Shown piece by piece: positions 32,270-49,512 of a stretch of DNA of 64,000 nucleotides. A program made the position numbers and the translations under genes. Every line of letters starts with the position of its first letter. The stretch's first letter is position 1. Source of the stretch: Pseudomonas sp. DG56-2 (GTDB lineage Bacteria; Pseudomonadota; Gammaproteobacteria; Pseudomonadales; Pseudomonadaceae); contig NZ_CP032311.1 in NCBI RefSeq assembly GCF_004803755.1, forward strand, positions 2,806,501 to 2,870,500, given 5' to 3'. The notes beneath the pieces were generated by a model. It saw only the letters and a program-made list of their open reading frames with translations, had not been told where the DNA came from and did not search any database.

Positions 32270-35200
32270 ATGACGACCCGACTCCGTACTGCAATTCCAG
32301 CCGCATTCAAACCGCAACGCCAAGCCCTGGCGCTTGAGCCGCGAATACTGTTTGACGGGGCAGCGGCGGCAGCGACCGCGGATCAGCACCAGCAGGATGC
32401 CGGCGATACAGGCAAGAGCGACACGGCGCACGCCACGCCGTCCGACGCTCGCAGCGAGCCCGGCCAGCAACCGTCTGCGGCGCGTCACCTGTTAGTGCTC
32501 GACAGCCGTATCGAAGGCCGCGAGCAACTCGCCGCCAATCTGCCGGACAACGTTGACGTGCTGGTGGTGGAGGCTAATCAGGATGGACTGGCCGCGATTT
32601 CCAGCGCCCTGGCCAAGCTGGGCCAAGTCGACTCGATTCAAATTCTATCCCATGGTGCCGCCGGCGAGTTCACCCTGGGCAGCACCACCCTGACTGCCGA
32701 GAATGTTGGGCAATACGCGCAACCGTTGAGTCAATGGAGCCAGTCCCTGAACGAAGGCGCCGACATCCAGCTCTACGGCTGCAAGGTGGGCGAAGGCAAG
32801 GATGGGCGTACCCTGGTGGATGAACTGGCGCGCTGGACCGGCGCAGACGTGGGCGCCTCTGACGACAACACCGGTAGCGCTAAAGCGGGTGGCGATTGGA
32901 GCCTGGAAATCAGCAATGGCTTGATCGATAAGTCTATCGCGCTCTCCAGCGCGGCCATGAGCAGCTACGAGCGGTTGCTGGCTGCAGGTCCAAGCACTGG
33001 ATTGTCCGGTGGTGCCGACGTCTTGTTGGGTGAGAACTTCACCTTCACGGTGACCTTCAGCAACAGCACTACCGATGCCGGTTATGCACCCTTTATCGAT
33101 TTATTCTTCCCCGCCACCGGCAAGGATGGCGCCGGCGCAGAAATTGATGACGGTATCACCTTCAGTTCCGCCAGCTACCTGGGCCAGACGCTGACCGCCC
33201 ACGTATTGACCTTCGATGCCAATGGCCAGGCCAGCCATCCCTTGGCCGTCGGCACCGATGGCAAGCCCCTGATCATAAACGCAGCCGACTTTGGAATGCG
33301 CGCGGGTGATCAGATGGTAGTCCTCGAACTGCCGTTCTCCAGCGTCAGCCAGGGCCAGCCGCCGATTGCCATTCAAGTGACCGCGACCTTAAGCAACCTG
33401 GCAGACACCGACTTCTCCTTCTCAGGCTCCACCCCTGACCTGACCATTCGTGCACGCAGTGGCTTTCAGTATGGCAACGATTCACTTAATAACCCGGCCA
33501 CTGACCCGAGTATTCTTGAGCCTTCGGCCAACGCCGACAGCTACGTCGTGCACCCAACCGTCATTACGGTTGATCAGACGGTCAGCACACCGGAAGGTGA
33601 AACTGCCACCGGCCCGAACTTCGTTCGCACGCTGTCTGGCACCATTACCCCAGCCGACTCGCAGACCTTGACCAACGTGGTGATCACCCAGCCGGTGCCA
33701 GACAATGTCATTGTCAAAGGCATCACCCCGGCTGCCGGAGGCACAGTTGTATCCATAACCCTCTACGATGGTCGTGTGATTACCGACCCGGCCTTGATTC
33801 GGGTAACGCTCGCGCGCAATAACGACAGTAACCTTGGCAACGACGTGTACCTTCGCGAATTCAGCGTGCGGTACCCGACGATCAGTGGCCCGACGAGCAC
33901 GAGCGTGCAGTTTTTTGTGCCCGATGAAGATGCCGATGGCGTTCCCGTCCTCAACCCGGTCACCGGCAATGATGTTGCCATCGTTTTCGATGGCCCTACT
34001 GCTACCGGCGACTGGGTGCCGTTGGATCCGCGCGACGCTGCGGGTGGGCAAATCGAGTTCAGTGGCACTGGGCAGGATGTCAGCTTTATTGCCAAGTCGA
34101 TTACCTTGCAAAAGGAGGTCACGGTCGCGATTGACGGTGGCACCGCCGGGGTAAGCCCGGGTGACACCCTCAGCTACCGCCTCAACATCGCCCTCTCCGA
34201 CTATTTTGCCTTTGGCAAAACCTTCCTCGGTAATGGCAGCTTCGTGGTTGCCGACAGCCTCGGTGATGGCCAAACCCTTGTGCCGGGCACGGCCACCTTG
34301 ACCCTCACGGTCAACGGCATCACTCAGACCATCACCCTGATCAGCAGCGCTGTGGTGAATGCGGACGGTACGACGTCCATGCAGTTCGACGTTGCCGGCT
34401 CTATCAGCAATGCCTTTGCCGTACGTAACTGGCTCAATGGCGACCTGGCCTTCGACGATGTACTGCAAGGCGCGACCCTGGCGGTGATCAGCTACCAGGC
34501 GCGAATCGGACAGAGCTATACACCGCCGAGCGGCAACCCTCATCCTGAAATCAACGAAGGCGATCCGCTCGGCAACAACGCCACCGTTACCGCCACGGTA
34601 CTGCTCGACCCTCTAAACCTCAGCGGCGACAACCAGAGCGACAGCTCCACTACCACCACCACCATCCCCACCAGCCAGGTTGAAATCAATCTGGCCGATC
34701 GCAACGGTGGTGGCGCGCCGGCACCTGGCACCGAGTTGCGCCCTGGTGACCGTGTCACTTTCCGCATCAGCTACGATTTGATCACCGGCGACTACGAAAA
34801 CTTCAAGCTCACGGCATACCTGCCTCTGCCGCTATTCGACCTCAGCGGCCTGGACCTCAACACCATCTGGCGCCTGGCGACAGACAACACCAATCCAAAT
34901 ACTCCAACGTCCATTACCCTCGGGCCAGGCAACTCGCTGGTGTTCACCTTCGCCGACTATGTGAACAGCGGGGTCGAAGGCAGCCGTATTTCGATCGACT
35001 TCACCCTGACCGTCAGTGACCAGCCGTTCGCCGACCAACGCGCCTTCAACGTGCTGGGCGAATCCAGTCAGACCCGGACGCTGGATAAAAGCGCTCTGGT
35101 AACCACCGATGACGTTACCTTGATCGCCTCGGTCGCTGAACCTGTGCTCAACATCAGCCATGGCGTAGTCTCCAGCAGCCATGGCACGGTATCGGGTACA

Positions 35201-38200
35201 ACCGGTAGCTGGACGTTACCGGGCACCGCTGGCACGCCGTTCGCCGGCAGTATCACCGATATCAGCGCGGTCAATGGCAATGTCAGCGGCATCGACGCCA
35301 GCGATCGCCTGCGCCTGGCCACCGCCATCGAGAACTCCGGTGGTGGCAGTGCATTCGATGTGCGCACCAGCATCACGCTGCCGCCGGGGCTGTCCTTTGT
35401 CGGTGGCAGCCTGTCTGCCGCCAACTTGCAAATCTATCGTGGCGACGGCACACGGCTCATCGCTGGCACGCACTACACCGTAATCAACGCCACCAACACT
35501 ATTACCTTCATCGACGGTGCTGGGGTCGGCGGGCTACTGGCCGGGCGCCCCGGCAGTGCTGCCGACAGCAGCGGTGCCAACGTGGTGGTCATCACTTACG
35601 AGGTCAATGTCAGCGCCACCATCGCCGCCAGCTCTACGCTGCAAACCAGCGCCCAACTGCTCGGTTACGCCAGTGTCGAAGGTGGACAGAACTTCGTTGG
35701 CTCTACACCATTGAGCGACATTGCCGGCCAGCAGGTCGCTGCCCCGACCATCAGTAAGAACTATGCTGGCGGCAGTCTCGACAATAGCGACTCCAGCGCC
35801 ACCCACACCACCGGCTCAAACCTGGTGGTCGGTGAAAGCATGCTTTACGACATCGTCGTGACCTTGCCTGAAGGGACTACCCAAAACCTGCGTATCGATG
35901 ATCTGATACCGCCCGGCATGCGTCTGGACACCAGTTTCGAGGGGCGAGGCTATCTGGTGATCACCAGCGCTGGTGGCTTATTGGCGCAAAATTTTGCCGG
36001 TACAGTCACGATCGGCAGCTTGAGTGCACCCTCCGGCACCCTGGGCGCTGACGGTGCCGATGCGCGCTTCGTCTTTACAGTGTCCAGCGCCACCGGTGAC
36101 AACAACACCGGCAACAACAGTTTCGTCATTCGTCTGCGCCTGGTTGCCAGTAACGTCATAGCCAACCAGACCAGCGCAGTCAGGCAAAACGACGCCACCC
36201 TCAACTACCGCGATCCCGACGGTGATACGCCAAATGGCACTACCGCAGTCAGCCGCGACGTGGCAGTGACCGGCGCCAAGCCCACCATCACCATTCAGGA
36301 ACCAACCCTGCAACTCAACCAGCAACTGGTCACCCCGCCAGGGCTGGGTTTCGACCAAGGTGACAAGGTCGAATACCACATCACCCTCAGCAACGGTACT
36401 GCGTCGAGCGACAATAACGCCTTCGATATTAACTTCAGCAGCGAACTGCCCACTGAACTGGACGGTTTGACCTTGATCAGTGCGATTTACACGGTCAATG
36501 GCGTGAGCACCGATATCACTGGCAGTTTTACCCTCGACCCTACAGGTCGCACGCTGATCAACACCGGCAATGTCGATATCGCCAAAGGCGGCACCGTGGT
36601 CTTGCGCGTTTCCGGGGTGGTCAATGCCACCGGCGCGTCGGTGGCGCAGTTCGACAACCTGGCGCAAGTACGCTGGACCAGCCTTGACGGTACGGTTGCC
36701 GGTGAACGAACCGGCAACGACGGTACACTCAACAGCGGCGTACTCAATGATTACCGCCGTGACAGCGTGCTCATCATTCCGGTGGCGCAAGGCATAAAGT
36801 TCTCGCGCGTCGGCGGACTTACCGACACCGCAGCCCCCAACCCGACCAACGCTCTGGAAGAAAAGGTCGCAGTCGGAGAAGTGATTCGCTACCGGGCGAC
36901 CGTATTGGTGCCTGAAGGTAACAACCCCAACTACCAGTTGGTGATTACCCTGGGTCGTGGCCTGACCCTGGGCGATTTGAGCACCCTGCGTATCGGCTTC
37001 GTCTCCGATGGTGGCCTGGTCACCAGCCTGAATGACCTGATCACCAGCGGCACGTTGCAGATTCTTGGCAACGAGGACAGTCCAGAGGCCCAATACATCA
37101 CCCCGGATCTCTCCGGCGCAGCGCCGACCGGCGTGCTCAACCCGATTTATGTCCAACTTGGCACCGATGCCAACGGCAATCAGATCGTTACCCTAAATTT
37201 GGGTAACATCACCAACGGCGCGCATGGCGCGGGTGACGATGGCAACGATGATGACCTTGAGGGCATCGTCGTCGAGTTCAATGCCCGGGTCAGCAACATT
37301 GTCGAGAACCAGACCGGCGTGGCCCTCGACGCCATTGTTCAAGACCGTGTCAACGGCAACCTGCGGGCAACCAGTGATGTGCTGCGCGAGCGCATCGTCG
37401 AGTCCAGTTTCAGCGAGTTCAACAAGCAGGTCACCGACTTTACACCCAACCCTGCCGGCACCACGGGCAACGCCACGGTCACCGTCAATTTCACCGCCAG
37501 CGGCGGCTTGCCAGCCTATGACGTGCACCTGAGCGACGGTTTCCCGACCGGCAGCAACTACAACCTGATCAGCGTTACCATCGGCGGCACCCTCTATGGT
37601 CCGGGCAACCTGCCCGCGGGCGTGACCTTCAGCTCCACAGGTGGGCTGAGCGTTGATATCGCTCGAATCGACATAGGTACGCGGGTCAGCGTGGTGTATT
37701 CAGTCGACGTTCCCAATGGCACGACTATCGCCAATACCGACGCCAACCTGAGCTGGAGCAGCCTGCCCGAAACGTTCACCAGTTGGGGCGGTACCACGGT
37801 TGGCGCCGACGGCAGCGCATCGGGCGAGCGTAACGGAACAGACGGTCCCGGTGCGGACGCTACAACCTTGAACAACTATGTCCTGCGCGAAGGTGCCGGG
37901 CTGGGCATCATCAGCGGCACCCTCTGGAACGACACCGGCACCGCCGCCTCTTCACCCAATGACGTAGCCCCGGACGCAGACCCTGTTCCCGGCACCCCAG
38001 CCTACGAGCTGGCAATTGCCAACCAGACCATCAAGCTGATCTGGGCAGGCGTTGACGGAGTCTTCGGCAATGGCGACGACAAGACCTTCAGCACCACCAC
38101 CGACAGCAATGGCCGCTTTATCTTCGGTGTTCTGCCCTCTGGTTTGTACCGTGTAGACGCACCGACCACCGTCAACAGCATCAGCCAGTTTGGCGAGCTG

Positions 38201-41200
38201 CGCATCCGCATCGATACCGACGGCAGCACCCTCGGCCAGGTCCGCGTGACCTTGGGTGAAGGGAGTGCCCAGCAAGCCAACTCCGGCTATGTCGAGGTCA
38301 ACGACGCACCGGTCAACACCCTGCCCGGCTCTCAGTCTGGAAATGAGGACGCCCCACTGGCAATCCCCGGTATCAGCGTCAGCGACGTCGATGCCGAGCG
38401 CAACCCGAACGTCAACGGCCGGGCCATTCAGGTGACGCTGACGGTGACTCACGGCACCCTGTCGCTCACCGGTGCTGCCACCGGGGTGACCGTAAGCGGC
38501 ACGGGCACCACGGCTTTGGTGCTGTTGGGACGGATTGCCGACATCAACGCGGCGTTGGCCAGCCTGAGCTATTTGGGCAACCTGAACTTCAATGGCGTCG
38601 ACTCCCTTCAGGTTCAAACCACCGATTTAGGCAACTATGGCGATTTCGATGGCAACGGCATTCCCGGGCAACCGACCGACGCGCGCACCGACACCGACTT
38701 GCTGGTGATCAACCTCGATCCAGTCAACGATGCGCCCATTGCCAATCCAGACACTGCCACCGCCGTAGAGGCCGGCGGCACCAACAACCAGCTGGACGGT
38801 ATCGACCCACGTGGCAACCTGCTGGATAACGACACCGATGTCGATATCGCCACCAACGGTGATGTGCTCAATGTGATTTCGGTGACATCCCCACTGGGTG
38901 TTACCCGGGCGCTTACTGGCATTGATGTGATAGAGATTGCCGGGCGTTACGGCAAGTTGGTGCTGTCGGCCAATGGCGCTTATGAGTACATCATCGACAA
39001 CAACAATGCCCAGGTTCAAGCACTGCGCCTGGCCGGCGACCAACTGACCGAAGTGTTCAGCTATACCATTGCCGATATCGGCCTGGGTGGCCCGCCGCTG
39101 CAGTCCACTTCGAGCTTGACCGTGGTGATTCAAGGCACCAATGATGCACCGGTTGGAAACGCCGATTCGGCCACTGCCATTGAAAAAGGGGGGGTTGGTA
39201 ACACCGATGTCGGCAAGCCTAACGATACCCCGCCCAGCAACTTCCCTATTCCTGGCACCGATGCCAGCGGCAATGTGCTGGACAACGATAATGATGTGGA
39301 CGGCGGCGAAAAGCCGACAGACCCGATCGACTATGGCGAAACCATCCGTGTTTCCGGTATTCGCGCCACACCGGAAATCTCCCCTGCGCCACTGACCACT
39401 GTGCCGGCCAACGGCAGTGTCAGCCTCGCGGGAACCTACGGGACCTTGACCATCGCTTCCGATGGTACCTATAGCTATGTCATCGACAACAGCAATACCG
39501 CCGTACAACGCCTCGGGCCCAATGACAGCCTGACCGAAGTGTTCAGCTATCAAGTAACAGATGCCTTGGGCCTCAATGACTTGGCTGAACTGCGCATCAC
39601 GGTCAAGGGCAACTTTGACAATCCACTCGCCAGCGACGATGCAGCCCAGGCGCAGGCAGGTTCTGACTCTACCAATGAAAGTAACCCCAGCGGCAACGTC
39701 ATTCAGTTCCCCAGCCGCCCGGGCAACACCGGCCCAGGTGGCACTGGCATAGACGCCGACGTCGACGCGGCGGACCGGCCCAATACCGTGTTGCAGGTCA
39801 ATGGCATTCGCAGTGGCATCGAGGCCGTCAATGGCATCGAACCGAGCAATGGCGCGCTGACGCCAGTCACCAGCGGACCGGTTTCCATCGCGGCGGTTTA
39901 CGCCCGAGACAGCACGGGGGTGCCTATTGCCGTCGTTGCGGGCGACAACTTTGGCATGCTGACCATCAATCCCGATGGTTCCTTCACCTTCGACGTCAAC
40001 AGCAACAACGCCGCGATTATCGCCCTACCCCGTGGGGTGTCGATGGAAGTGGTTTTTACCTATCAGGTTGTCGACTCGGCTGGACTGACCGACACCGCGC
40101 AACTGGTGATTGTGGTCACCGGTGCCAACAATCCACCTCATGCACAGGACACCGTAGTGCTGGCCACTGAAGCGGGCGGCGCCGGTAACGGCACACCAGG
40201 CCTTGACCCCGGCGTTCCGCCCGCGCCAATTCGGCAAGTTACCTTTGCCGACCCTGATGGCGATCCAATCAGCGTGACGGGTATACGCACAGGGCTGCAA
40301 AATGCAACCGACGGCACTGTCGGGGTGGTTGGCGACCCGCTGAACGGCAGATTCGGTACCCTGACCATTCAGCCCGACGGCACCTACACCTATGTGATCG
40401 ACAACAACAATTCTGAAGTCCAGGCGCTGCGCGGGATCGACGATTTGCTGGTGGAAGTCTTCACTTATCGGGTCACCGATTCCGACGGCGAATTCGACGA
40501 CGCCCAGATCGTCATCGTTATCCGAGGCCAGAACGATAACCCGGTTGCTGGCAATGACTCGGCAACCGCCGTAGAAGCCGGCGGGGTCAACAACAGCAGT
40601 GGCGGCGTCGACCCCACCGGTAACGTATTGACCAATGATAACGACGTCGATGGCGGTGTCGGCGACCCGACCGACTACGGCGAAACCAGCAGCGTGGCCT
40701 CGGTACGCACCGGCGCCACCGAGGGCGCTGGCAATGCCGGCACGCTGGGGAGCGAATTGCGCGGTACCTACGGCTGGCTGACCCTCAATGCCGATGGCAG
40801 CTACAGCTATCGCCTGGACAACAGCATGGCGGCCGTGCAAGCCCTGCGACCCGGCAACACACTGACTGATGCCTTCAACTACCACGTTATCGATACTGCA
40901 GGCGCTACCGATATAGCAGTGTTGAACATCACCATCCAGGGCAGCAACGACGCACCTGTCGCCAACCCCGACAGTGCATTGGCGGTCGAGGCTGGCGGCT
41001 TGAACAACGCCACCCCTGGCAGTAACCCCAGTGGCAACGTGCTCAGCAATGACACTGATGTCGACCAATTTGGCGAAAAACTGACAGTCACTGCGATTCG
41101 TCAAGGGCCCAACGCCGGCAGCGTCGGTAGTAGTTTTGCCGGCCAGTACGGCAGTCTGACCTTGAACGCCGATGGCAGCTACACCTATCTGGTCGACAAC

Positions 41201-43762
41201 AATAATCCACAGGTGCAAGCGCTGCGCACTGCCGGCGACACTGTCAGTGAATTTTTCACCTACACCATCCGTGACCTTTCGGGCGCGCTCAGCGCCGCCA
41301 ATCTGACCATCACGATCCGCGGCCAGAACGACAATCCGGTCGCGGTCAACGATACCGCCATTGCTGTCGAAGCCGGTGGCACCAATAACGGCACCGCAGG
41401 CCTCAACCCCACTGGAAACCTGTTAAGCAATGACACTGACGTCGATGCGGCTGACAGCAAGACCGTCAATGGCATTCGCGCGGGCAGCGAAGCGGCTGGT
41501 GGCACCTTCACAGCGGTCACCGGTCCTCAGACCATCACCGGGATCTACGGCACCTTGACGGTGTTTGCCAACGGCGATTATCGCTATCAAGTCAACAACG
41601 CACTGGCTGCCGTCCAGGCCCTGAAACCGGGCGATACCCTTCAGGAGGTGTTCACCTATCGCATGCGCGACACCGCCGGGGCCGAGGACATCGCCCAGTT
41701 CAGCCTGACCATTCAAGGCGCGTGGGATGCCCCGGTGGCCCGAGACAACGTCAATCTTGCCGTGGCCGATAATGGCGATGGCCTGACCATCAACCCCAGC
41801 GGCAATGTGCTGCCTAACGACAGCGATGTTGACCAAGGCGATGTACTTACAGTGACCGGCATTCGTACCGGTCCGGAAAGTGGCACGGGGGTGGCCGGCA
41901 CGGTTGGCAATGTGTTGATCGGCCAATATGGCACACTGGTAATCAATGCCGACGGCAGCTACACCTACCACGTCGACAGCTCCAACCCGGCCGTTCTGGC
42001 GTTGGATTTGCTGCAGACAGTGGTCGATAAATTCACCTACCAAGTGACCGACCGAGGCGGTCTCACCGACCTCGCGCAACTGTCGATCATCGTCATCGGA
42101 CGCAATGATGTGCCCGATGGCATTGATGATGCTGCCACTGCTGTCGAGGCAGGCGGATTGAACAATGCGACGCCTGGCTTCAACCCCAGCGGCAATGTGC
42201 TCAGCAACGACATCGACCTTGAAAACGATGTATTGACAGTCTCGGCAATCCGAACCGGCAGTGAAACCGGTACAGGCACCGATGGCACGGTAGGCACCAC
42301 CCTCCGTGGGCTGTATGGCGACCTGGTGATGAACGCAGACGGCAGTTGGACCTACACCGTCGACAACAGCCTGGCAGCGGTGCAAGCGCTGCGCACCAGT
42401 GGCCAGGTACTGGTAGATGTATTCACCTATACAGTGGTCGACCCTCACCAGGCCGATGACACTGCACAGCTGACCATCACCATAGACGGTCGCAACGACA
42501 CGCCAATTGCCGTCGACGACAACAGCATCGCTGTCGAGGCGGGAGGTGTGAGCAATGGCAAACCCGGTGTAGACCCACGCGGTAATGTGCTGGACAACGA
42601 CACCGACGTCGACAGCAGCGCCTTGGGTGAAACCCGCCAAGTGCTATCGGTGACCAGTGAAACCGGTAACACCGCCCTCGCCGGCCAGACCATCGCCGGG
42701 CGCTACGGCCACCTGCTGCTCAATGCCGACGGCAGCTACCAGTACGTTTTGGACAACAACAATCCAATCGTGCAGGCCCTGCGCACGGCAGGTGAAACCC
42801 TGCGTGAAGTGTTTACTTACCGCATGCACGACACTGCCGGGGCCGAGTCGCAGGCGCGGCTCAATATCCTCATTCAAGGCGCCAACGACAGTCCGCTTGC
42901 CCGCGACGACAGCAACGTCGCCAGCGACCAGACCACAGCGCCGCAAAGCTCCGGTAAAGTCCTGCCCAATGACAGCGATGTCGACGGCGGCGACCAATTG
43001 AGCGTCAGCGCCATTCGTACCGGTGCTGAAACCGGCACCGGCACCCATGGGGTGCTCGGCCAACCGCTGGCCGGTCGCTACGGCACACTGGTGATAAACG
43101 CCGATGGCAGCTACACCTACACCATCGACATGAGCAATCCGCAAGTACTGGCCGCCGCCGGGCTGGGTCAAGTGCTCCAGGATGTCTTCACCTACACCCT
43201 TGTCGATCGAGCCGGCGCCACGGACCTTGCCCAGTTGACCATTTCGCTAGACATCACCGCCCCGTTCATCCCGGCCCCCGCCGGCCCGTTCTTCGGCCGC
43301 GATGCAGTGGACCCGCTGCACAACTTGCCGCTGCCCGATGTACAGCCGGCAGTGTTCGTCGGTCCCGTGGTTGAAGCGCAAAGCCGCGCGCTCGAGCTTT
43401 CCAGCTGGCAGGCCGACGGCAGCAACTTGAGCTATGGCCTGATCCCTGAAATTCGTAGCGAAACCCTGAACCAGCGCCTGGGCCTGGAACAAGGTCAGTT
43501 CGTTGCCAAGGCCGTGCACAACAGCAGTCGCGAAAGCAGCCTGGACATGGCCTGGATTCTCGGCCGCCAGTCACGCATCAACCTCAGCGCCGATGGCCTG
43601 CTGCCTGACCCTTCGGTTTTTGCCACCGACGCTGCGCACATGAACAAGGGCGATGCCCAGTTGCCACCGCCTTCCGAAGCCCGAATTGCCTCCGGTTTTC
43701 GCGCCCAACTGCGTGAAGCGGCCGAGCGCCTGCGGGCAATGGACAACGGTACCCGCGAATAA
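32270..43762 (+). CDS. 3830-aa secreted giant protein: LEPR-XLL, DUF4347, DUF11-like and VCBS-type repeats
   Basis: The ATG at 32270 follows GAGG. The protein opens MTTRLRTAIPAAFKPQRQAL. From residue 22 it carries LEPRILFDGAAAA, the LEPR-XLL motif of giant extracellular proteins. A DUF4347 domain covers about residues 72-240 (LLVLDSRIEG, ILSHGAAGEFTLG, QLYGCKVGEG). About 240-1880 is a series of DUF11/D2-like beta domains. About 1880-1970 is an SdrD-B-like domain (GTLWNDTG to FGVLPSGLYRVDAPTT). A cadherin/tandem-95-like unit follows, then eleven VCBS-type repeats from about 2150 to 3662. The last 168 residues are distinct and low in glycine: I see no RTX nonapeptides, LPXTG or autotransporter barrel. 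Cysteine is almost absent. It is probably a surface adhesin or matrix protein exported by the next four genes (inference from order). Confidence 0.88.
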   Translation: MTTRLRTAIPAAFKPQRQALALEPRILFDGAAAAATADQHQQDAGDTGKSDTAHATPSDARSEPGQQPSAARHLLVLDSRIEGREQLAANLPDNVDVLVVEANQDGLAAISSALAKLGQVDSIQILSHGAAGEFTLGSTTLTAENVGQYAQPLSQWSQSLNEGADIQLYGCKVGEGKDGRTLVDELARWTGADVGASDDNTGSAKAGGDWSLEISNGLIDKSIALSSAAMSSYERLLAAGPSTGLSGGADVLLGENFTFTVTFSNSTTDAGYAPFIDLFFPATGKDGAGAEIDDGITFSSASYLGQTLTAHVLTFDANGQASHPLAVGTDGKPLIINAADFGMRAGDQMVVLELPFSSVSQGQPPIAIQVTATLSNLADTDFSFSGSTPDLTIRARSGFQYGNDSLNNPATDPSILEPSANADSYVVHPTVITVDQTVSTPEGETATGPNFVRTLSGTITPADSQTLTNVVITQPVPDNVIVKGITPAAGGTVVSITLYDGRVITDPALIRVTLARNNDSNLGNDVYLREFSVRYPTISGPTSTSVQFFVPDEDADGVPVLNPVTGNDVAIVFDGPTATGDWVPLDPRDAAGGQIEFSGTGQDVSFIAKSITLQKEVTVAIDGGTAGVSPGDTLSYRLNIALSDYFAFGKTFLGNGSFVVADSLGDGQTLVPGTATLTLTVNGITQTITLISSAVVNADGTTSMQFDVAGSISNAFAVRNWLNGDLAFDDVLQGATLAVISYQARIGQSYTPPSGNPHPEINEGDPLGNNATVTATVLLDPLNLSGDNQSDSSTTTTTIPTSQVEINLADRNGGGAPAPGTELRPGDRVTFRISYDLITGDYENFKLTAYLPLPLFDLSGLDLNTIWRLATDNTNPNTPTSITLGPGNSLVFTFADYVNSGVEGSRISIDFTLTVSDQPFADQRAFNVLGESSQTRTLDKSALVTTDDVTLIASVAEPVLNISHGVVSSSHGTVSGTTGSWTLPGTAGTPFAGSITDISAVNGNVSGIDASDRLRLATAIENSGGGSAFDVRTSITLPPGLSFVGGSLSAANLQIYRGDGTRLIAGTHYTVINATNTITFIDGAGVGGLLAGRPGSAADSSGANVVVITYEVNVSATIAASSTLQTSAQLLGYASVEGGQNFVGSTPLSDIAGQQVAAPTISKNYAGGSLDNSDSSATHTTGSNLVVGESMLYDIVVTLPEGTTQNLRIDDLIPPGMRLDTSFEGRGYLVITSAGGLLAQNFAGTVTIGSLSAPSGTLGADGADARFVFTVSSATGDNNTGNNSFVIRLRLVASNVIANQTSAVRQNDATLNYRDPDGDTPNGTTAVSRDVAVTGAKPTITIQEPTLQLNQQLVTPPGLGFDQGDKVEYHITLSNGTASSDNNAFDINFSSELPTELDGLTLISAIYTVNGVSTDITGSFTLDPTGRTLINTGNVDIAKGGTVVLRVSGVVNATGASVAQFDNLAQVRWTSLDGTVAGERTGNDGTLNSGVLNDYRRDSVLIIPVAQGIKFSRVGGLTDTAAPNPTNALEEKVAVGEVIRYRATVLVPEGNNPNYQLVITLGRGLTLGDLSTLRIGFVSDGGLVTSLNDLITSGTLQILGNEDSPEAQYITPDLSGAAPTGVLNPIYVQLGTDANGNQIVTLNLGNITNGAHGAGDDGNDDDLEGIVVEFNARVSNIVENQTGVALDAIVQDRVNGNLRATSDVLRERIVESSFSEFNKQVTDFTPNPAGTTGNATVTVNFTASGGLPAYDVHLSDGFPTGSNYNLISVTIGGTLYGPGNLPAGVTFSSTGGLSVDIARIDIGTRVSVVYSVDVPNGTTIANTDANLSWSSLPETFTSWGGTTVGADGSASGERNGTDGPGADATTLNNYVLREGAGLGIISGTLWNDTGTAASSPNDVAPDADPVPGTPAYELAIANQTIKLIWAGVDGVFGNGDDKTFSTTTDSNGRFIFGVLPSGLYRVDAPTTVNSISQFGELRIRIDTDGSTLGQVRVTLGEGSAQQANSGYVEVNDAPVNTLPGSQSGNEDAPLAIPGISVSDVDAERNPNVNGRAIQVTLTVTHGTLSLTGAATGVTVSGTGTTALVLLGRIADINAALASLSYLGNLNFNGVDSLQVQTTDLGNYGDFDGNGIPGQPTDARTDTDLLVINLDPVNDAPIANPDTATAVEAGGTNNQLDGIDPRGNLLDNDTDVDIATNGDVLNVISVTSPLGVTRALTGIDVIEIAGRYGKLVLSANGAYEYIIDNNNAQVQALRLAGDQLTEVFSYTIADIGLGGPPLQSTSSLTVVIQGTNDAPVGNADSATAIEKGGVGNTDVGKPNDTPPSNFPIPGTDASGNVLDNDNDVDGGEKPTDPIDYGETIRVSGIRATPEISPAPLTTVPANGSVSLAGTYGTLTIASDGTYSYVIDNSNTAVQRLGPNDSLTEVFSYQVTDALGLNDLAELRITVKGNFDNPLASDDAAQAQAGSDSTNESNPSGNVIQFPSRPGNTGPGGTGIDADVDAADRPNTVLQVNGIRSGIEAVNGIEPSNGALTPVTSGPVSIAAVYARDSTGVPIAVVAGDNFGMLTINPDGSFTFDVNSNNAAIIALPRGVSMEVVFTYQVVDSAGLTDTAQLVIVVTGANNPPHAQDTVVLATEAGGAGNGTPGLDPGVPPAPIRQVTFADPDGDPISVTGIRTGLQNATDGTVGVVGDPLNGRFGTLTIQPDGTYTYVIDNNNSEVQALRGIDDLLVEVFTYRVTDSDGEFDDAQIVIVIRGQNDNPVAGNDSATAVEAGGVNNSSGGVDPTGNVLTNDNDVDGGVGDPTDYGETSSVASVRTGATEGAGNAGTLGSELRGTYGWLTLNADGSYSYRLDNSMAAVQALRPGNTLTDAFNYHVIDTAGATDIAVLNITIQGSNDAPVANPDSALAVEAGGLNNATPGSNPSGNVLSNDTDVDQFGEKLTVTAIRQGPNAGSVGSSFAGQYGSLTLNADGSYTYLVDNNNPQVQALRTAGDTVSEFFTYTIRDLSGALSAANLTITIRGQNDNPVAVNDTAIAVEAGGTNNGTAGLNPTGNLLSNDTDVDAADSKTVNGIRAGSEAAGGTFTAVTGPQTITGIYGTLTVFANGDYRYQVNNALAAVQALKPGDTLQEVFTYRMRDTAGAEDIAQFSLTIQGAWDAPVARDNVNLAVADNGDGLTINPSGNVLPNDSDVDQGDVLTVTGIRTGPESGTGVAGTVGNVLIGQYGTLVINADGSYTYHVDSSNPAVLALDLLQTVVDKFTYQVTDRGGLTDLAQLSIIVIGRNDVPDGIDDAATAVEAGGLNNATPGFNPSGNVLSNDIDLENDVLTVSAIRTGSETGTGTDGTVGTTLRGLYGDLVMNADGSWTYTVDNSLAAVQALRTSGQVLVDVFTYTVVDPHQADDTAQLTITIDGRNDTPIAVDDNSIAVEAGGVSNGKPGVDPRGNVLDNDTDVDSSALGETRQVLSVTSETGNTALAGQTIAGRYGHLLLNADGSYQYVLDNNNPIVQALRTAGETLREVFTYRMHDTAGAESQARLNILIQGANDSPLARDDSNVASDQTTAPQSSGKVLPNDSDVDGGDQLSVSAIRTGAETGTGTHGVLGQPLAGRYGTLVINADGSYTYTIDMSNPQVLAAAGLGQVLQDVFTYTLVDRAGATDLAQLTISLDITAPFIPAPAGPFFGRDAVDPLHNLPLPDVQPAVFVGPVVEAQSRALELSSWQADGSNLSYGLIPEIRSETLNQRLGLEQGQFVAKAVHNSSRESSLDMAWILGRQSRINLSADGLLPDPSVFATDAAHMNKGDAQLPPPSEARIASGFRAQLREAAERLRAMDNGTRE
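38727..43255 (+). repeat. Eleven tandem VCBS-type repeats inside the giant gene
   Basis: Each unit of about 375-516 bp starts with an N-D-x-P motif, continues with a D-x-A-x-AVEAGG segment and GN-LxNDTDVD, and ends with YGTLTLNADGSYTY-x-VDN, VQAL and VFTY-x-V-x-D. Unit starts lie near 38727, 39137, 39608, 40124, 40529, 40942, 41324, 41719, 42101, 42491 and 42880. Units 5-11 are the most alike (375-413 bp). Units 3 and 4 carry insertions. Similarity at DNA level is visible (for example GCCGATGGCAGCTACA), so copy number may vary by recombination. Confidence 0.85.
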
Positions 43763-43782
43763 GCAAGGACCAAGGACAGACC

Positions 43783-45312
43783 ATGCCAAAACTGCCTCAG
43801 ACATTGTTCAGTACGGCCATTGCTTCCACCTTTTTGCTCGCCGCCTGTTCTGCGACCAAGCCTGTGGAATACACCGAGGATGAAACCCGGCAACGGATCA
43901 TTCAGGACCAGGCGCAGATGTATGCAAACCAGGAGCCGGTAACCACACCCATCACCTTCTACGAGGCCGCTGCACGCGCCCTCAAGTACAACCTTGATTA
44001 CCGCCTGAAACTGATGGAAGGCGCACTGGCCAGCGACCTGCGCGACGTGTCCAGCCACGAAATGCTGCCGCGCCTGGTAGCTTCGGCCGGGTACGCGGGG
44101 CGTAACAATGATTCCGGTGGTACCTCCATCGGTATCGAAGACCGCGAACAGAGCTTGCGTGCATCGACGTCTGAAGAGCGCTACCGGCAAATCTACGGGC
44201 TCGGTTTGAGTTGGAGCCTGTTGGACTTCGGCGTGGCCTATTACCGCACCCAGCAGAAAACCGACCAGATCCTCATGGCCGAAGAGCGCCGCCGCAAGGT
44301 GGCACAGAATGTTCTGCAAGACGTACGCAATGCTTACTGGCGGGCCCTCAGCGCGCAGCGGTTGATGCCGCAGGTGGACCGCTTGCTGGTACGCACCCAT
44401 CAGGCGCTGCTTTCAGCACGTCAAGCCGAGACCAAGGGCCTGCTGCCGCGCCAGGAGGTATTGTCGTACCAGCGCGCGCTGCTCGATTCCATCTATCTGT
44501 TGACTGTGCGCCGCCAGGATCTGGAGTTTGCCCGCGCCGAGTTGTCGGCACTGATGTCGCTGCCACCCGGTTCTCGGTTGATCCTGGCTGATCAGGTCGA
44601 GCCAACCCTGCCGGAGGTGTCCCAGGACATCAACAAGCTCGAATTGCTGTCGTTGAACCACCGTCCCGAGATCATGGAAGAGTGGTACCGCAAGCGGGTC
44701 AACGAGAACGACCTGAAGATCGCCAAGACTCAACTGTGGCCGAACGTGAGCCTGGACTTCGGTTACAAGTACGACTCCAACAAATACCTCTATAACAACG
44801 ACTGGAACGAGACCGGCCTGCAAGTCTCGATGAACCTGTTGCGCCTGTTGCAGTTACCTTCGCTCAATCGCGCCGCCGAGTCGCAGAGCAAAACCGATGA
44901 CATGCGCCGGGTGGCGTTATCGATGGCGATCCTCACTCAAGTACGGGTGGGCACCTTGCGCTACCAACTGGCACGCCAGGAAGTTGAATTTGCCGATCAA
45001 AGTCTGCGCGTCGATCAGAGTTTACTGAGCTACGCTGAAGCTGCACGCACCACTGCCTATGGCTCGGAGCTGGAAGTGATACGTGCCGAAGGTCGCTACC
45101 TGCTCTCGCGCTACCAGCGTGAGGCGGCTTATTCCAGCGCCCAGGCGGCGTGGGGACGGTTGTACAACTCGGTCGGCCTGGACACGCTACCCCAACAGAT
45201 CGAACAACACAGCATCAAAACCCTGGCGCAGGAAATCCAGCGCACCGTGGAAAATCAGGAACGCAGCAACCTTCTGGCCATGCAAGGAACGCCGAATGCC
45301 ATACAGCCTTGA
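43783..45312 (+). CDS. TolC-family outer-membrane factor lipoprotein
   Basis: A 509-aa outer-membrane efflux-type protein with a lipobox LLAAC (acylated Cys22). It has long amphipathic coiled-coil helices (TEDETRQRIIQDQAQMYA; RRRKVAQNVLQDVRNAYWRA) in the two-fold TolC pattern. It would form the outer-membrane exit duct. The gene starts 20 bp after the giant-protein gene, and its end overlaps the next adaptor gene by 17 bp, indicating one transcript. The sequence resembles secretion-type TolC proteins. The specific partner is inferred from the operon. Confidence 0.87.
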   Translation: MPKLPQTLFSTAIASTFLLAACSATKPVEYTEDETRQRIIQDQAQMYANQEPVTTPITFYEAAARALKYNLDYRLKLMEGALASDLRDVSSHEMLPRLVASAGYAGRNNDSGGTSIGIEDREQSLRASTSEERYRQIYGLGLSWSLLDFGVAYYRTQQKTDQILMAEERRRKVAQNVLQDVRNAYWRALSAQRLMPQVDRLLVRTHQALLSARQAETKGLLPRQEVLSYQRALLDSIYLLTVRRQDLEFARAELSALMSLPPGSRLILADQVEPTLPEVSQDINKLELLSLNHRPEIMEEWYRKRVNENDLKIAKTQLWPNVSLDFGYKYDSNKYLYNNDWNETGLQVSMNLLRLLQLPSLNRAAESQSKTDDMRRVALSMAILTQVRVGTLRYQLARQEVEFADQSLRVDQSLLSYAEAARTTAYGSELEVIRAEGRYLLSRYQREAAYSSAQAAWGRLYNSVGLDTLPQQIEQHSIKTLAQEIQRTVENQERSNLLAMQGTPNAIQP

Positions 45313-46063
45313 GCGCAGTCTGCTCGCAGTACTCCTGTCCTTGATTCTCAGCCCTGCAGTAGCCGATGAAACGGCACCACTGCCCAGCAGCAACGAGCCG
45401 AGTACGATTCGCGTGTTGCTGGTTGCCGGGCTTGAAACCACCCTCTCCAGCCAGATGGCCGGCACCCTTGGCGAGTTCAAGGCAGCGCTCGGCCAACATG
45501 TTGCCAAGGATGCGGTGTTGGCGCGCTTTGACTGCGCCGAAGCCCAGGCGCGCTCGCGAGTCGCTGCCGCCGAACTGACCATGGCCCGGCAAAACCTCGA
45601 AGCCAAACGCAACCTGCGCAAGCTCGACGCTGTGGGCGACCTAGAAGTGAATATGGCCAACACTGAAGTGCAGAAGGCCGATGGTGCACGCGCCATGGCG
45701 CAGGCCCAGAGCGGCTACTGCGTGGTACAGGCGCCTTTTGCCGGGCGCGTGGCCAAAGTGCATGCCAAACCTTTCCAAACCGTAGCCGCAGGCACACCGC
45801 TGTTTGACCTGGTCAGCGATGGCGCACTCAAGGTGCGCTTGAATGTGCCGTCCAGCCTGTTGCCTCAGCTCAAGGCAAACCAGGCGCTTGAGGTGAGCAT
45901 TCTGGAAACTGGCAAAGCCTACCCAGCGCATGTCAGCGCCATCAACGCACGGGTAGACGCCGTTGCCCAAACCGTGGAGTTGGAGGCACGCCTGGACGCC
46001 GCACACCCGGACCTTATCGCTGGCATGAGCGGCACCGCACGCTTCCCTGGCGCCAATGACTGA
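45296..46063 (+). CDS. Small periplasmic HlyD/RND-type adaptor protein
   Basis: A 255-aa protein with a cleavable signal (MPYSLERSLLAVLLSLILSP, cleavage near AVADE). A split biotinyl-lipoyl domain (LGQHVAKDAVLARFDCAEA and VVQAPFAGRVAKVHAKPFQ) is separated by a short helical hairpin (about residues 80-130), then a beta-barrel domain. It lacks a membrane anchor and is short for an adaptor. The ATG at 45296 follows AAGGAACGCCGA. The start lies inside the end of the TolC-like gene, and its own end overlaps the next gene by 8 bp. It probably bridges the inner-membrane components to the TolC-like duct. Confidence 0.82.
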   Translation: MPYSLERSLLAVLLSLILSPAVADETAPLPSSNEPSTIRVLLVAGLETTLSSQMAGTLGEFKAALGQHVAKDAVLARFDCAEAQARSRVAAAELTMARQNLEAKRNLRKLDAVGDLEVNMANTEVQKADGARAMAQAQSGYCVVQAPFAGRVAKVHAKPFQTVAAGTPLFDLVSDGALKVRLNVPSSLLPQLKANQALEVSILETGKAYPAHVSAINARVDAVAQTVELEARLDAAHPDLIAGMSGTARFPGAND

Positions 46064-47396
46064 GCCGCTACCGCACCCGCAGCTGCTGTTGGCGATCGCA
46101 GCCCTGCGTGACAAAGCCCTGGCTGCCGACTCGTTGAATGCGCTGGGATTCTCCATCGCCAACGATCCCTATCCCCTGCTGCAGTACCACCAGGCCCTGG
46201 TCTTCCAGCAGCAAGGGCAGATCCTCGAACTGTTGTGCGTATCGGGCCTGGCCCGACCGACTGAAGACTCGCCTTACCTGGTGTGGCTGCAACGTGCCGT
46301 ACGCTGGGTTGCCAGCCAAGTGCAAGACAACAAGCCGCTGTGGCTTGCGCGTGATGCCGTTACCCCAACGCCTGACATCGAAGAAGGTTGGGCCGAGTGG
46401 TGGCCTGCAGGGCTGTGGTGTATCCCGTTGCTGGACCGCGAGGGTGAGCGTTTAGGCCTGGTGCTGTTTCTCTTGGACAATCCACCCACGCCTGCGCTTG
46501 AACCTCTGTTCGACGGCCTGTGGCTTACGTGGGCGCATTGCTGGGCGGGCTTTGGCAAAAAACGCCGGCTATCGCGCTGGCGGCCGAGCAAACGCCAATT
46601 GTTGCTGGGCCTGGCAGTAGCGGTGGCTTTGTTACTGGTCCCGGTTCGGCAAACTGCCTTGGCTCCTGCTGAAATCGTCTCGCGCCAAGCGATGATCATC
46701 AGCTCACCCATCGATGGTGTGATTCAGGGCATGCAGGTGCGTCCCAATCAGAGCGTAGAGAAAGACACGCTGTTGTTCAGCCTGGATGAAACCACCCTCA
46801 ACAGCCGTGCCGATGTTCTGAGCAAGGAAGTCGCCGTAGCCGATGCCGAGTTGGCGGCGGCCAGCCAGCGGGCGTTTGACAACCCGCAAAGCAAAAGCGA
46901 GCTGACCCTGTTGAATGGCCGAGTGCAGCAGCGCCGGGCGGAGCTGGCGGCAGTCAAGGCGCAACTGCGGCGCACCCAGGTTCGCGCACCCCGGGCAGGC
47001 GTGGCGGTCTACAGCGATCCCAACGATTGGCTGGGCAAGCCGGTGTCCACTGGCGAGCGAATCCTGTTGATTGCCGAGCCCAAGCAACCGGCGATGCTTA
47101 TCCAGTTACCGGTGGCCGATGCCATCGCCTTGGAGCCCGGCGCCGAAGTGACCTTGTTCCTCACCGCCTACCCGCTGACCCCACTCAACGGCAAAGTTCT
47201 CGAGACCAGCTACCAGGCACGCGCCAATGAAGAAGGCGTGGTGGCGTACCGCTTGCTCGCCAGCATCGACGGCAAACCTGAACACGCGCGACTTGGCCTG
47301 CACGGCACCGCCCGCTTGTACGGGGAACGCGTGGTGCTGGGTTATTACCTGCTGCGTCGGCCTTTCGCCGCGCTGCGGGCCTGGAGCGGCATGTGA
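46056..47396 (+). CDS. Inner-membrane GAF-like / HlyD adaptor fusion
   Basis: A 446-aa protein in three parts. The first is a soluble N-terminal region (about residues 1-165) with GAF-like character (HQALVFQQQGQILELLCVSG; WCIPLLDREGERLGLVLFLL). Next is one membrane helix at about 181-200 (LLLGLAVAVALLLVPV). The last is a periplasmic HlyD-type region with split lipoyl halves (ISSPIDGVIQGMQVRPNQSV and VRAPRAGVAVYSDPNDWLG) flanking a coiled coil. A cytoplasmic sensor-like domain joined to a periplasmic adaptor could couple export to a signal. The GAF assignment is by sequence character only. Overlaps at both ends (8 and 4 bp) show tight translational coupling. Confidence 0.78.
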   Translation: MTEPLPHPQLLLAIAALRDKALAADSLNALGFSIANDPYPLLQYHQALVFQQQGQILELLCVSGLARPTEDSPYLVWLQRAVRWVASQVQDNKPLWLARDAVTPTPDIEEGWAEWWPAGLWCIPLLDREGERLGLVLFLLDNPPTPALEPLFDGLWLTWAHCWAGFGKKRRLSRWRPSKRQLLLGLAVAVALLLVPVRQTALAPAEIVSRQAMIISSPIDGVIQGMQVRPNQSVEKDTLLFSLDETTLNSRADVLSKEVAVADAELAAASQRAFDNPQSKSELTLLNGRVQQRRAELAAVKAQLRRTQVRAPRAGVAVYSDPNDWLGKPVSTGERILLIAEPKQPAMLIQLPVADAIALEPGAEVTLFLTAYPLTPLNGKVLETSYQARANEEGVVAYRLLASIDGKPEHARLGLHGTARLYGERVVLGYYLLRRPFAALRAWSGM

Positions 47397-49495
47397 TTGG
47401 CGTCGACCCGGCGCAACTGCCGTCGCAGCCACTGCGCGAAGACCTGCGCCTGCTGGAAACCGCCCCGGACAGCAGCGGCGAACCGGCCTGGGTGATTCAG
47501 GACACAGTGGTCAACCGCTTCTACCGCATCGGCTGGCTGGAGTTTGAGTGCCTGTTGCGCTGGGACCGCACACCGAACGACATTTGCCAGGCCATTCACG
47601 CAGAAACCCCGCTGCGTCCGGACGTGGAGCAAATCGTGGAGTTTCGCCAGTTTCTGGAGCACCACCAACTGGTCCGCCCCGGCCGCGAGGCCCTCGCCCG
47701 CCTGGTGGCGCGCAGCAAGGACAATGCCTGGCTGAGCTGGAGCTGGTGGCTGCATCACTACCTGTTTTTCCGCATACCGCTGCTGCGCCCACAGCATCAC
47801 CTGCAGTGGCTGGCAGAGAAACTCGACTGGCTGTTCAAACCGCTGACCGCGGTGCTGATCGTGTTGCTGGGCTTGACCGGCGTACTGTTGGTGCTGCAAC
47901 AGTGGGATACCTTTACCTCGGCGGTGGTGGAGTCGTTTTCAGCTTCAGGCCTGGTCAGTTTTGCCATTGCTCTGGCGCTGGCCAAGACCCTGCATGAGCT
48001 GGGGCACGCGTTGGTCGCCACCCGCCTGGGCCTGCGCGTGGGTCATATGGGCATCGCCTTTGTGGTCATGTGGCCAATGCTCTACACCGACACGGGCGAA
48101 AGCTGGAAGCTGCGCAGTTCCAGGCAGCGCCTGGCCATTGCCTCCGCGGGCATCCTAACCGAGCTGGCCTTGGCCGGGCTTGCCACGTTGGGCTGGGCGT
48201 TGTCCGATCCTGGCCCATTGCGCAATGCCCTGCTGTACCTGGCAACCACCAGTTGGGTGCTGTCGCTGGCACTCAACGCAAGCCCGTTCATGCGCTTTGA
48301 TGGCTATTTCATTCTTTCTGACTTGCTCGACTTCCCCAATTTGCACGAGCGCTCCTCGGCCTTGGCCCGAGTCACCCTGCGCCGTGTACTGCTGGGCTTG
48401 AATGAGGAATGGCCGGAACACTTTCACCCCGCTAAACGACGAGCGCTGGTGACCTTTGCCATAGTGACCTGGGTGTACCGCTTGGTACTTTTCCTGGGCA
48501 TCGCCGTGGCGGTTTACCTGCTGTTCTTCAAGCTGCTGGGTATTTTTCTGTTCGCCGTGGAGTTGGCGTGGTTCATCGTCATGCCGGTATGGCGCGAGCT
48601 CAAATACTGGTGGAAGCATCGTGAAGGGGTAAACACCGGCCACCGGCGTGCCTGGTGGGCAATCGGCGCGCTGATCGTATTGCTGCTGGCGGTACCCTGG
48701 CGCTCGCAGGTTCAGGCCTTGGGTGTGGCCCGGGCCGAACATCAACTGCGGGTGTTCGCCCCTTACCCTGCACGTTTGCAGGCCTTGCATCGCGCTGGCC
48801 ACGTCGCCGCCGGTACCGCTCTGGTCACCCTCGAAGAACCTGATATTGCCTCGCGTCTTTCGACCACCGAGGCCAGTGTCAAAAGTTATCAGGCTCGCCT
48901 CGGCGGCCTGATTGCCGACCCTTCTGGTGCCGACCAGGCCATCGCCACCCGCCAGCGCCTGGACGTCCAGTTCGAAGAAGCGCGCGCAGCACGGTCGGAA
49001 ATTGCCCGGCTGACGTTGCAAGCCCCGTTCGAAGGTCAATGGCTCGACCTGGACCCTAACTGGCAAACCGGGCAATGGGTCAGCAGTCGCGAACCCATCG
49101 GCATCCTGGTCGACCCACGGCATTGGCAGGTTGACGCCTACGTCGACCAGGATGAAGTGCAGCGTCTTGTAGCGGGCGGCGCGGTGCGCTTTTACCCCGA
49201 AGGACAACCAACCCCCATCACTGGCAGCGTGCTCGCTATCGGCAGTACACGCGTCAGTCAACTGCACCACGAAATGCTCGCCTCGCGTTTCGGCGGACCG
49301 CTGACGGTCGCCAGCCGGGGCAAGGAACTATTGCCGACGCCGCCACTGTTCCATGTGTTGATCAAACTCGATGGTGCGCCAACCACCTTGCGCGAAACCC
49401 GCGGTCGGCTGCAGATCGCTGGTGAACGTCGCAGTTTGCTAGGCCAAGGATTTATCCATGTGGCGGCAGTGTTGCTGCGAGAGAGTGGGTTTTAA
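47393..49495 (+). CDS. Site-2 protease (M50)-like membrane protein fused to HlyD adaptor
   Basis: A 700-aa protein starting at GTG inside the previous stop (ATGTGA). Residues 1-105 form a soluble, winged-helix/PqqD-like region. Residues 150-410 are polytopic, with a zinc-protease motif H201-E-L-G-H205 (TLHELGHALVATR) and the second motif F302-D-G-Y-F306 of M50 proteases. A further membrane helix at about 423-440 (AIGALIVLLLAVPW) leads to a periplasmic lipoyl/HlyD domain (QALHRAGHVAAGTALVTLEE; LTLQAPFEGQWLDLDPNWQ). The catalytic motifs are intact. It may process or energise export of the giant protein. The operon has no ABC ATPase. The stop codon lies in a long inverted repeat that may end the transcript. 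Confidence 0.83.
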   Translation: MIGVDPAQLPSQPLREDLRLLETAPDSSGEPAWVIQDTVVNRFYRIGWLEFECLLRWDRTPNDICQAIHAETPLRPDVEQIVEFRQFLEHHQLVRPGREALARLVARSKDNAWLSWSWWLHHYLFFRIPLLRPQHHLQWLAEKLDWLFKPLTAVLIVLLGLTGVLLVLQQWDTFTSAVVESFSASGLVSFAIALALAKTLHELGHALVATRLGLRVGHMGIAFVVMWPMLYTDTGESWKLRSSRQRLAIASAGILTELALAGLATLGWALSDPGPLRNALLYLATTSWVLSLALNASPFMRFDGYFILSDLLDFPNLHERSSALARVTLRRVLLGLNEEWPEHFHPAKRRALVTFAIVTWVYRLVLFLGIAVAVYLLFFKLLGIFLFAVELAWFIVMPVWRELKYWWKHREGVNTGHRRAWWAIGALIVLLLAVPWRSQVQALGVARAEHQLRVFAPYPARLQALHRAGHVAAGTALVTLEEPDIASRLSTTEASVKSYQARLGGLIADPSGADQAIATRQRLDVQFEEARAARSEIARLTLQAPFEGQWLDLDPNWQTGQWVSSREPIGILVDPRHWQVDAYVDQDEVQRLVAGGAVRFYPEGQPTPITGSVLAIGSTRVSQLHHEMLASRFGGPLTVASRGKELLPTPPLFHVLIKLDGAPTTLRETRGRLQIAGERRSLLGQGFIHVAAVLLRESGF

Positions 49496-49512
49496 CATCG
49501 TGTTAAAACCCA
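49486..49512 (+). terminator. AT-rich inverted repeat overlapping the stop codon of the export operon
   Basis: TGGGTTTTAACA-TCG-TGTTAAAACCCA: 12 perfect base pairs around a 3-base loop, with the stop TAA inside the left arm (49493-49495). No T-run follows. It is a terminator or an RNA end-protecting hairpin. Confidence 0.55.

Follow-up and report, generated by a model that had tools for sequence, protein, structure and literature searches.

A stretch of 64,000 nucleotides from Pseudomonas sp. DG56-2 (the window) carries a five-gene cassette. Our comparisons support it as a dedicated export set that lacks an ABC gene and stays together with a giant protein as one unit, its hallmark being an M50 protease joined to an HlyD-type adaptor (M50-HlyD). 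The original prediction, which had described a giant protein followed by a TolC-like lipoprotein, a small adaptor, a GAF-like domain joined to HlyD (GAF-HlyD) and M50-HlyD, was confirmed in its gene order, and no ABC gene is present within the five-gene set. The cassette contains the following features:

32270..43762, + strand: giant LEPR-XLL/DUF4347/VCBS protein of 3,830 aa, the proposed cargo
32333..32362, + strand: LEPRILFDGA tag, residues 22-31 of the giant, proposed address or leader (LEPR-8K match)
32489..32980, + strand: DUF4347 domain, residues 74-237 of the giant
40916..41188, + strand: best of 11 Cadherin_4 stretches, residues 2883-2973 of the giant
43160..43759, + strand: final 200 residues of the giant
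43783..45312, + strand: TolC/OEP-type outer-membrane lipoprotein of 509 aa, with the lipobox LAAC read from the sequence
45296..46063, + strand: small periplasmic adaptor (RND_mfp type) with a signal peptide; the start codon is our reading
46056..47396, + strand: GAF-HlyD protein of 446 aa
46062..46568, + strand: GAF fold (model), residues 3-171 of GAF-HlyD, followed by a hydrophobic helix at residues 179-194
47393..49495, + strand: RRE-like/M50/HlyD fusion of 700 aa (M50-HlyD)
47420..47680, + strand: RRE/PqqD-like domain (predicted fold), residues 10-96 of M50-HlyD
47993..48007, + strand: HELGH zinc site of the site-2 protease, residues 201-205
48296..48310, + strand: FDGYF, residues 302-306
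48632..49465, + strand: HlyD/MFP part of the M50 protein, residues 414-691

The complete five-gene set was found in 70 of 80 named loci, and a stretch resembling the last 200 residues of the giant in 74 of them, in five of which it lies on a downstream giant with a weaker match. The co-occurrence check proposed at the outset revealed no regular linkage to an ABC gene, such a gene being near the cassette in 8 of the 80 named loci, always beyond it and never within. Across the phylum, 1 of 20 loci has one, on the opposite strand and outside the set; the idea of a dedicated export set lacking its own ABC gene thus held up. Two parts of a type I system, an HlyD-type adaptor and a TolC-type channel, are both encoded in the cassette, the small adaptor scoring 114 bits against TIGR01730 (cut-off 94.9), while the GAF domain of GAF-HlyD was recognised by its predicted fold, with a Pfam match in a class II homologue only.

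M50-HlyD and the giant travel together across genomes. The M50-HlyD counts are lower bounds, as one scan scored three candidates per genome and listed its matches in shortened form; another scored seven. Among 148 genomes of the family, M50-HlyD and DUF4347 occurred together in 55, M50-HlyD alone in 7, DUF4347 alone in 1 and neither in 85 (p=1.5e-31), and 69 of 75 DUF4347 places lie within 30 kb of M50-HlyD. Across the phylum (349 genomes), M50-HlyD and the LEPR-XLL tag were both present in 69, M50-HlyD alone in 18, the tag alone in 13 and neither in 249 (p=2.9e-42); 12 of the 13 tag-positive genomes without M50-HlyD are weak tag matches, and 39 of 40 strong-tag genomes have M50-HlyD. Counted per genus, the corresponding table reads 41/3/5/135 (both, single, single, neither) for 184 genera (p=9.5e-32). 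Counting the M50-HlyD listed, only 21 of 44 strong-tag giants share a contig with one at a distance of 65 kb or less. Merely supportive is a subset of five genomes, including G107 with three contigs, where 7 of 8 strong-tag places, one of them a 316-aa frame, lie within 65 kb of M50-HlyD against 0.5 expected.

By hydropathy no classical Sec signal peptide was found on the giant, and the claim that RTX repeats and an ATPase are missing at the locus proved correct, with a single GGxGxD in the giant. Its last 200 residues matched no NCBIfam model, type I C-terminal models included, and over the full protein neither a type I C-terminal model nor the LapA retention module NF033682 was matched at E<=0.1; ahead of residue 486 we found no [TPAS]AAG, which we take to be the cleavage-site motif of LapA-type retention modules. 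What the giant does bear is the LEPR-XLL tag, as found on some of the largest bacterial proteins. N-terminal pieces scored 17.9-20.2 bits with NF012209 (cut-off 17), a model not among the matches listed for the full-length query. The consensus LExRxxFDGA was present in 30/30 DUF4347 loci examined (best 30 of 75 matches), and relative G258, without DUF4347, keeps the tag LEQRFVFDGA on its giant. The tag is probably the address label of the giant. In the open-licence literature, two papers mention LEPR-XLL in passing and we found none assigning it a function. In DUF4347, SHG and YGC stand in register in all 30 loci examined, suggesting from sequence a His/Cys protease-like site; searching solved structures by sequence with DUF4347 yielded no match. 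PMC12322963 lists a Burkholderia thailandensis DUF4347 protein as increased in stationary phase.

M50-HlyD begins with a domain (residues 10-96) predicted to adopt a PqqD-like winged-helix fold, the mean pLDDT of the model being 71.6. The Pfam and NCBIfam PqqD models did not match this domain of the window at E<=10, and Foldseek with its model returned adaptors alone among the first 50 matches listed; in a class II homologue (L278:9015-11159), PqqD PF05402 matches with 28.8 bits (cut-off 23.4). Neither this domain nor the LEPR tag as a probable address label had figured in the original prediction. As expected of a site-2 protease, HExxH and a downstream Asp lie within membrane helices; HExxH is present in 91 of 92 sequences, H201, E202, H205 and D303 are invariant across 12 diverse sequences, and D303 is by analogy the probable third zinc ligand.

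The M50-HlyD proteins fall into two classes, the window belonging to class I. In the sister class (class II), a gene for a SecA-like ATPase stands beside M50-HlyD, SecA_DEAD being recognised in 4/4 class II neighbours scanned; the SecA-like gene occurs in 23 of the 349 genomes, all 23 of which also have a strong tag and M50-HlyD. No SecA-like gene was found in the stretches examined for 29 class I tree rows, nor a SecA-like frame in the window, and the genome has one SecA. Tag type and M50 class agree in 12 of the 13 strong-tag loci whose contig also carries M50-HlyD at 65 kb or less (30 loci examined). This is the systematic count; in hand-assembled loci, which include five class I loci and one class II locus outside the tree, the tag type agrees in 20/20 class I and 9/10 class II cases. 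L263 is discordant: its tag is of class II, whereas the M50-HlyD 24 kb away belongs to class I. The earlier suggestion that the ABC protein is replaced or an ATPase borrowed from elsewhere was partly supported, borrowing having gained a candidate in the SecA-like ATPase of the sister class. The original prediction knew of no characterised example; a precedent exists, since Kamneva, Poudel and Ward described secondary SecA_DEAD/Peptidase_M50-HlyD/GAF-HlyD loci of Gram-negative bacteria in 2015 (PMC4452313), Methylobacterium extorquens AM1 being one bacterium with a class II locus. In the portion available, that paper calls their biological role completely unknown and gives no substrate; PqqD, LEPR, cadherin and Pseudomonas were not found in its main text.

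Taken together, we consider it slightly better than an even bet that the cassette is a dedicated exporter of LEPR giants, in which the RRE reads the tag, the protease trims it and a SecA-type motor drives export, with recognition, cleavage and motor being inferred parts of the model. The giant has neither an ordinary Sec signal peptide nor an RTX-type tail and carries the N-terminal LExRxxFDGA tag. The cytosolic RRE/PqqD-like domain heading M50-HlyD would bind this tag in the way that RREs recognise the leaders of RiPPs, for which the fold, the co-occurrence and the matching of tag and class argue; the site-2 protease, with its active-site residues intact, may then trim the tag at the inner membrane. 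Judged from their families, the three HlyD-type adaptors and the TolC lipoprotein would form the conduit through periplasm and outer membrane. A SecA-type push would come in class II from the dedicated, genetically linked SecA-like ATPase and in the class of the window possibly from housekeeping SecA, which is the weakest step; the lack of a SecA-like gene in class I, together with the single SecA of the genome, counts against the model. Speculatively, the GAF domain might gate the assembly. The broader reading, to which we would give not quite an even chance, is a distinct Gram-negative pathway for giant proteins in RiPP style, in which a PqqD/RRE-protease-adaptor protein reads LEPR-XLL, tag types match machines and a SecA-type motor, dedicated or recruited, takes the place of an ABC protein.

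Rather unlikely is that in class I the membrane part of M50-HlyD forms an inner-membrane pore needing no ATPase, with either the proton gradient or folding outside as its power source. Site-2 proteases are not known to act as protein channels, which counts against it, and the homologous sister class retains its SecA-like motor; the SecA-like gene missing from the class I stretches would fit a pore, which Kamneva et al. proposed for the M50 protein (PMC4452313).

We give still less credence to the giant being a type I substrate pumped by an unlinked LapB/LssB-type ABC protein, with the cassette supplying only adaptors and TolC. The genome-wide ABC search, covering the LssB-type family TIGR03375, revealed two such genes here and a match in 58 of 62 M50-positive family genomes, and the giant scores 446 bits (curated cut-off 180) with the BapA/Bap/LapF large-adhesin model NF045619 via 11 repeat stretches, the best spanning profile positions 111-222 of 458; members of this model are presumably type I cargo. 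However, each of the two ABC genes of the genome lies beside OEP and HlyD genes and a giant of its own. Both of these giants match the LapA retention module and one has a C-terminal domain of type I; L212, an ABC-linked giant, matches the type I C-terminal and the BapA/Bap/LapF models. Furthermore, a TIGR03375 match at 1e-100 was missing in 4 of the 62 genomes (seven candidates per genome scored), and among the 40 genomes with a strong tag, 22 score above the curated threshold and six are without any match (up to 21 candidates scored). A Vibrio giant with a LEPR-XLL start and RTX/serralysin ends, published in PMC10868602 (available text), favours the type I route and fits less well with a dedicated exporter.

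It is improbable that the cassette merely processes or releases the giant, which would exit via Sec and be cut or anchored by the M50 complex: the protease residues are conserved and the SecA link of class II agrees with Sec export, but adaptors and a TolC gene are conserved alongside M50-HlyD, and hydropathy shows no classical signal peptide on the giant. That the genes form an unrelated pump for efflux or peptide export, simply adjoining the giant, is very improbable, for although the M50 part has a below-cut-off similarity to daptide and epipeptide proteases and relatives L165 and L166 have M50-HlyD with no giant seen in the 12-15 kb examined, the joint occurrence across 349 genomes and 184 genera speaks against it, as does the tag-class matching. 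Because of the Vibrio LEPR-RTX giant, the BapA/LapF match and the discordant L263, the exporter and RiPP-style readings lose slight weight, as does processing, and the type I route gains.

If the dedicated exporter is real, the LEPR-XLL tag gains a function, the SecA_DEAD loci of 2015 gain a substrate and peptide-leader recognition serves proteins far larger than RiPP precursors; joining the tag to the SecA_DEAD/M50/GAF-HlyD locus makes both testable with simple mutants.

A term search of reviews of tripartite systems (PMC4446572 and the available part of PMC8277102) found no M50 or GAF fusions. With LapA-like type I systems (LapEBC) the window shares a Gram-negative giant with VCBS-type repeats, an HlyD-type adaptor and a TolC-type channel, the BapA/Bap/LapF repeat match being a further likeness to their cargo; it differs in having no ABC gene, LapA retention module or type I C-terminal match, and in bearing the LEPR tag instead. 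The mfpABC of Vibrio, considered as a relative, was set aside by its listing description alone. Gram-positive accessory Sec (SecA2) exports large serine-rich adhesins and, like class II, links a second SecA to giant proteins, whereas class II is Gram-negative, its SecA-like protein of ~660 aa is linked to HlyD and M50 genes, and the class of the window has no such gene. The loci of Kamneva et al., in the part of PMC4452313 available, likewise encode M50-HlyD, GAF-HlyD and a further HlyD protein together and no ABC gene, some with an OEP, whereas the window has no SecA-like gene and adds its own TolC and the LEPR/DUF4347 giant. Residues 10-96 of M50-HlyD share their predicted fold with RiPP RRE/PqqD proteins such as lasso peptide B1 and TbiB1 with leader peptides (6jx3, 5v1u, 5v1v); here, in contrast, the proposed partner is a protein of 3,830 aa, and the domain shares its polypeptide with a membrane protease and an adaptor.

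The window lies on a complete 5.82-Mb chromosome (G000:C1:2806501-2870500), and its M50-HlyD shares 88-89% identity with that of Pseudomonas alkylphenolica, which places the host in Pseudomonas. Gene calls and domain searches confirmed the tight five-gene set of the original prediction, in which the giant is followed on the same strand by a TolC-type lipoprotein, a small HlyD-like adaptor, GAF-HlyD and M50-HlyD, with a 20-nt gap and then overlaps of 17, 8 and 4 nt. The giant contains DUF4347 and 11 Cadherin_4/VCBS stretches; LEPR-8K scored over the cut-off when N-terminal pieces were the query and was absent from the matches listed for the full-length query. A single GGxGxD is present, no [TPAS]AAG occurs upstream of residue 486, and the top 12-residue hydropathy of the first 80 residues is 1.44, that of the small adaptor's signal peptide being 2.57. 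DUF4347 (window positions 32489-32980) shows SHG and YGC in register in 30/30 loci examined. Judging by its sequence, this domain may be a caspase-like cysteine protease, processing the giant once exported. Antisense to the giant, long open frames (33482-43171, minus strand) are probably a by-product of base composition. Beyond the cassette, the window reveals:

49842-51896, alkyl sulfatase with a metallo-beta-lactamase fold plus dimerisation and C-terminal domains, next gene downstream of the cassette
52750-54051, FadL-type porin
55456-58023, minus strand, CHASE4-PAS-GGDEF-EAL protein, about 6 kb from the cassette and a possible c-di-GMP input to the adhesin system

Searching species genomes with M50-HlyD as sole query unveiled 160 relatives. 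Among the best 80 of these 160 loci, which were retained, GAF-HlyD was recognised in 80/80, the small adaptor in 79/80, and TolC and the giant in 74/80 each; all five families, whose co-occurrence the original prediction had raised, were found together in 70/80, and at the sequence level the five genes form a conserved unit. The giant is located downstream of M50-HlyD in five loci (L055, L058, L060, L066 and L074). Using a profile built from the two LssB-type ABCs of the own genome, an ABC gene was detected near the set in 8/80 best loci, each time outside the cassette, and in 1/20 phylum-wide 20-kb loci, which agrees with the proposed export set lacking an ABC transporter. In a class-wide sample, this M50-HlyD type was displayed by 11/229 genomes, including the window's own. 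The M50-HlyD relatives of loci L165 (G116:C188) and L166 (G194:C98) showed neither a giant nor a recognised GAF-HlyD within the 12-15 kb examined and possibly serve other cargo. Locus L089 (G193:C143) carries the sole M50-HlyD frame of 92 without HExxH, its profile match spanning just positions 4-503.

In the family sample of 148 genomes (M50-HlyD threshold E<=1e-60), M50-HlyD was present in 62 and DUF4347 in 56, with both in 55, M50-HlyD alone in 7, DUF4347 alone in 1 (a weak match) and neither in 85 (p=1.5e-31); 69/75 DUF4347 places have an M50-HlyD no more than 30 kb away. LExRxxFDGA stands directly upstream of DUF4347 in 30/30 of the best 30 of 75 DUF4347 loci, and in G258, which has M50-HlyD and no DUF4347, the giant in the cassette starts with LEQRFVFDGA. 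Therefore, as far as these sequences indicate, the N-terminal LEPR tag is more constant than DUF4347. Phylum-wide, 349 genomes (M50-HlyD profile A3, E<=1e-40; LEPR-8K, E<=0.05; strong tag, E<=1e-3) displayed M50-HlyD in 87 and LEPR-8K in 82, both in 69, one alone in 18 and 13, respectively, and neither in 249 (p=2.9e-42), while at genus level (n=184) both occurred in 41, one alone in 3 and 5, and neither in 135 (p=9.5e-32). M50-HlyD was present in 39/40 strong-tag genomes. For strong tags with a frame of at least 1,000 aa, 21/44 have a listed M50-HlyD within 65 kb on the same contig; most strong tags without such linkage come from many-contig genomes, and in G107 the two are 648 kb apart.

The machines fall into two classes, class I, to which the window belongs, without and class II with a SecA-like ATPase gene. 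Class II giants, often of 8,000-15,000 aa, carry LEPRxLLSAD-like tags, and the usual gene order is giant, GAF-HlyD, PqqD-M50-HlyD, SecA-like ATPase (about 660 aa) and adaptor. All 4/4 class II ATPases scanned matched SecA_DEAD; a wing/scaffold domain was absent from the matches listed for these four. At a threshold excluding housekeeping SecA, a SecA-like gene was found in 23/349 genomes, 23/23 of which also carry M50-HlyD and a strong tag. Of the 40 rows in an M50-HlyD tree, the nine linked to a SecA-like gene all group within a clade of 11; the second clade (29 rows, including the window) has none within the stretches examined, and support for this split is 100/100. From 30 strong-tag loci, 13 had a classed M50-HlyD within 65 kb on the same contig, and tag wording agreed with its class in 12/13 (10 class II, 2 class I), the discordant locus being L263, whose frame is short and lies at the end of its contig; in hand-assembled loci the tag matched in 20/20 class I and 9/10 class II cases. 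Tag wording thus tracks the M50-HlyD class, which is indirect evidence that tag and machine recognise each other. Contig 1 of G379 holds both classes, an M50-HlyD beside a SecA-like gene and a separate class I M50-HlyD (sites near 1436458 and 2682767), the class I protein coming with a LEPRLMYDAA tag and a DUF4347-like giant.

According to our main reading, a PqqD/RRE-like domain of M50-HlyD would read the tag and a SecA-type motor would drive export. Against it, the giant could be a type I-like cargo despite its tag, as its repeats score over the cut-off of the BapA/Bap/LapF large-adhesin model, which an ABC-linked giant of the same genome (L212) likewise matches. In addition, LEPR-XLL at the N-terminus together with RTX and serralysin domains at the C-terminus is described for a giant of about 8,000 aa from Vibrio (PMC10868602), and therefore tag and type I-like ends can coexist in one protein. 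The own genome has two LssB-type ABCs, each adjoined by OEP and HlyD genes:

C1:138000-157999 (L211), LapA-like giant locus with OEP, ABC and HlyD genes
C1:4305000-4324999 (L212), LapA-like giant locus with OEP, ABC and HlyD genes

ABC-type giant export thus runs beside the window set in the same genome. Each ABC-linked giant carries a LapA retention module and one of the two also a type I C-terminal domain; the window giant matches neither model. An LssB-type ABC seems not to be required, because a match is absent in 4/62 M50-HlyD-positive family genomes and, among 40 strong-tag genomes (22 with a match over the cut-off), in 6. Returning to the SecA-type motor, the own genome has one SecA and no SecA-like frame was found within the 64-kb window; by analogy with the class II SecA-like ATPase, housekeeping SecA would be the preferred class I motor, this being the weakest step of the proposal.

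Secondary SecA_DEAD proteins encoded together with M50, GAF and HlyD proteins have been reported by Kamneva et al. 2015 (PMC4452313), who, in the portion of their text available, already remarked on the missing ABC, proposed SecA as the ATPase and M50 as the pore, and described the wider role as "completely unknown". Compared with the available text of Kamneva et al. 2015, the new elements are LEPR giants as proposed cargo, an RRE-like domain, a class without a SecA-like gene and the match of tag and class. In the open-licence literature, no paper was found making these links.
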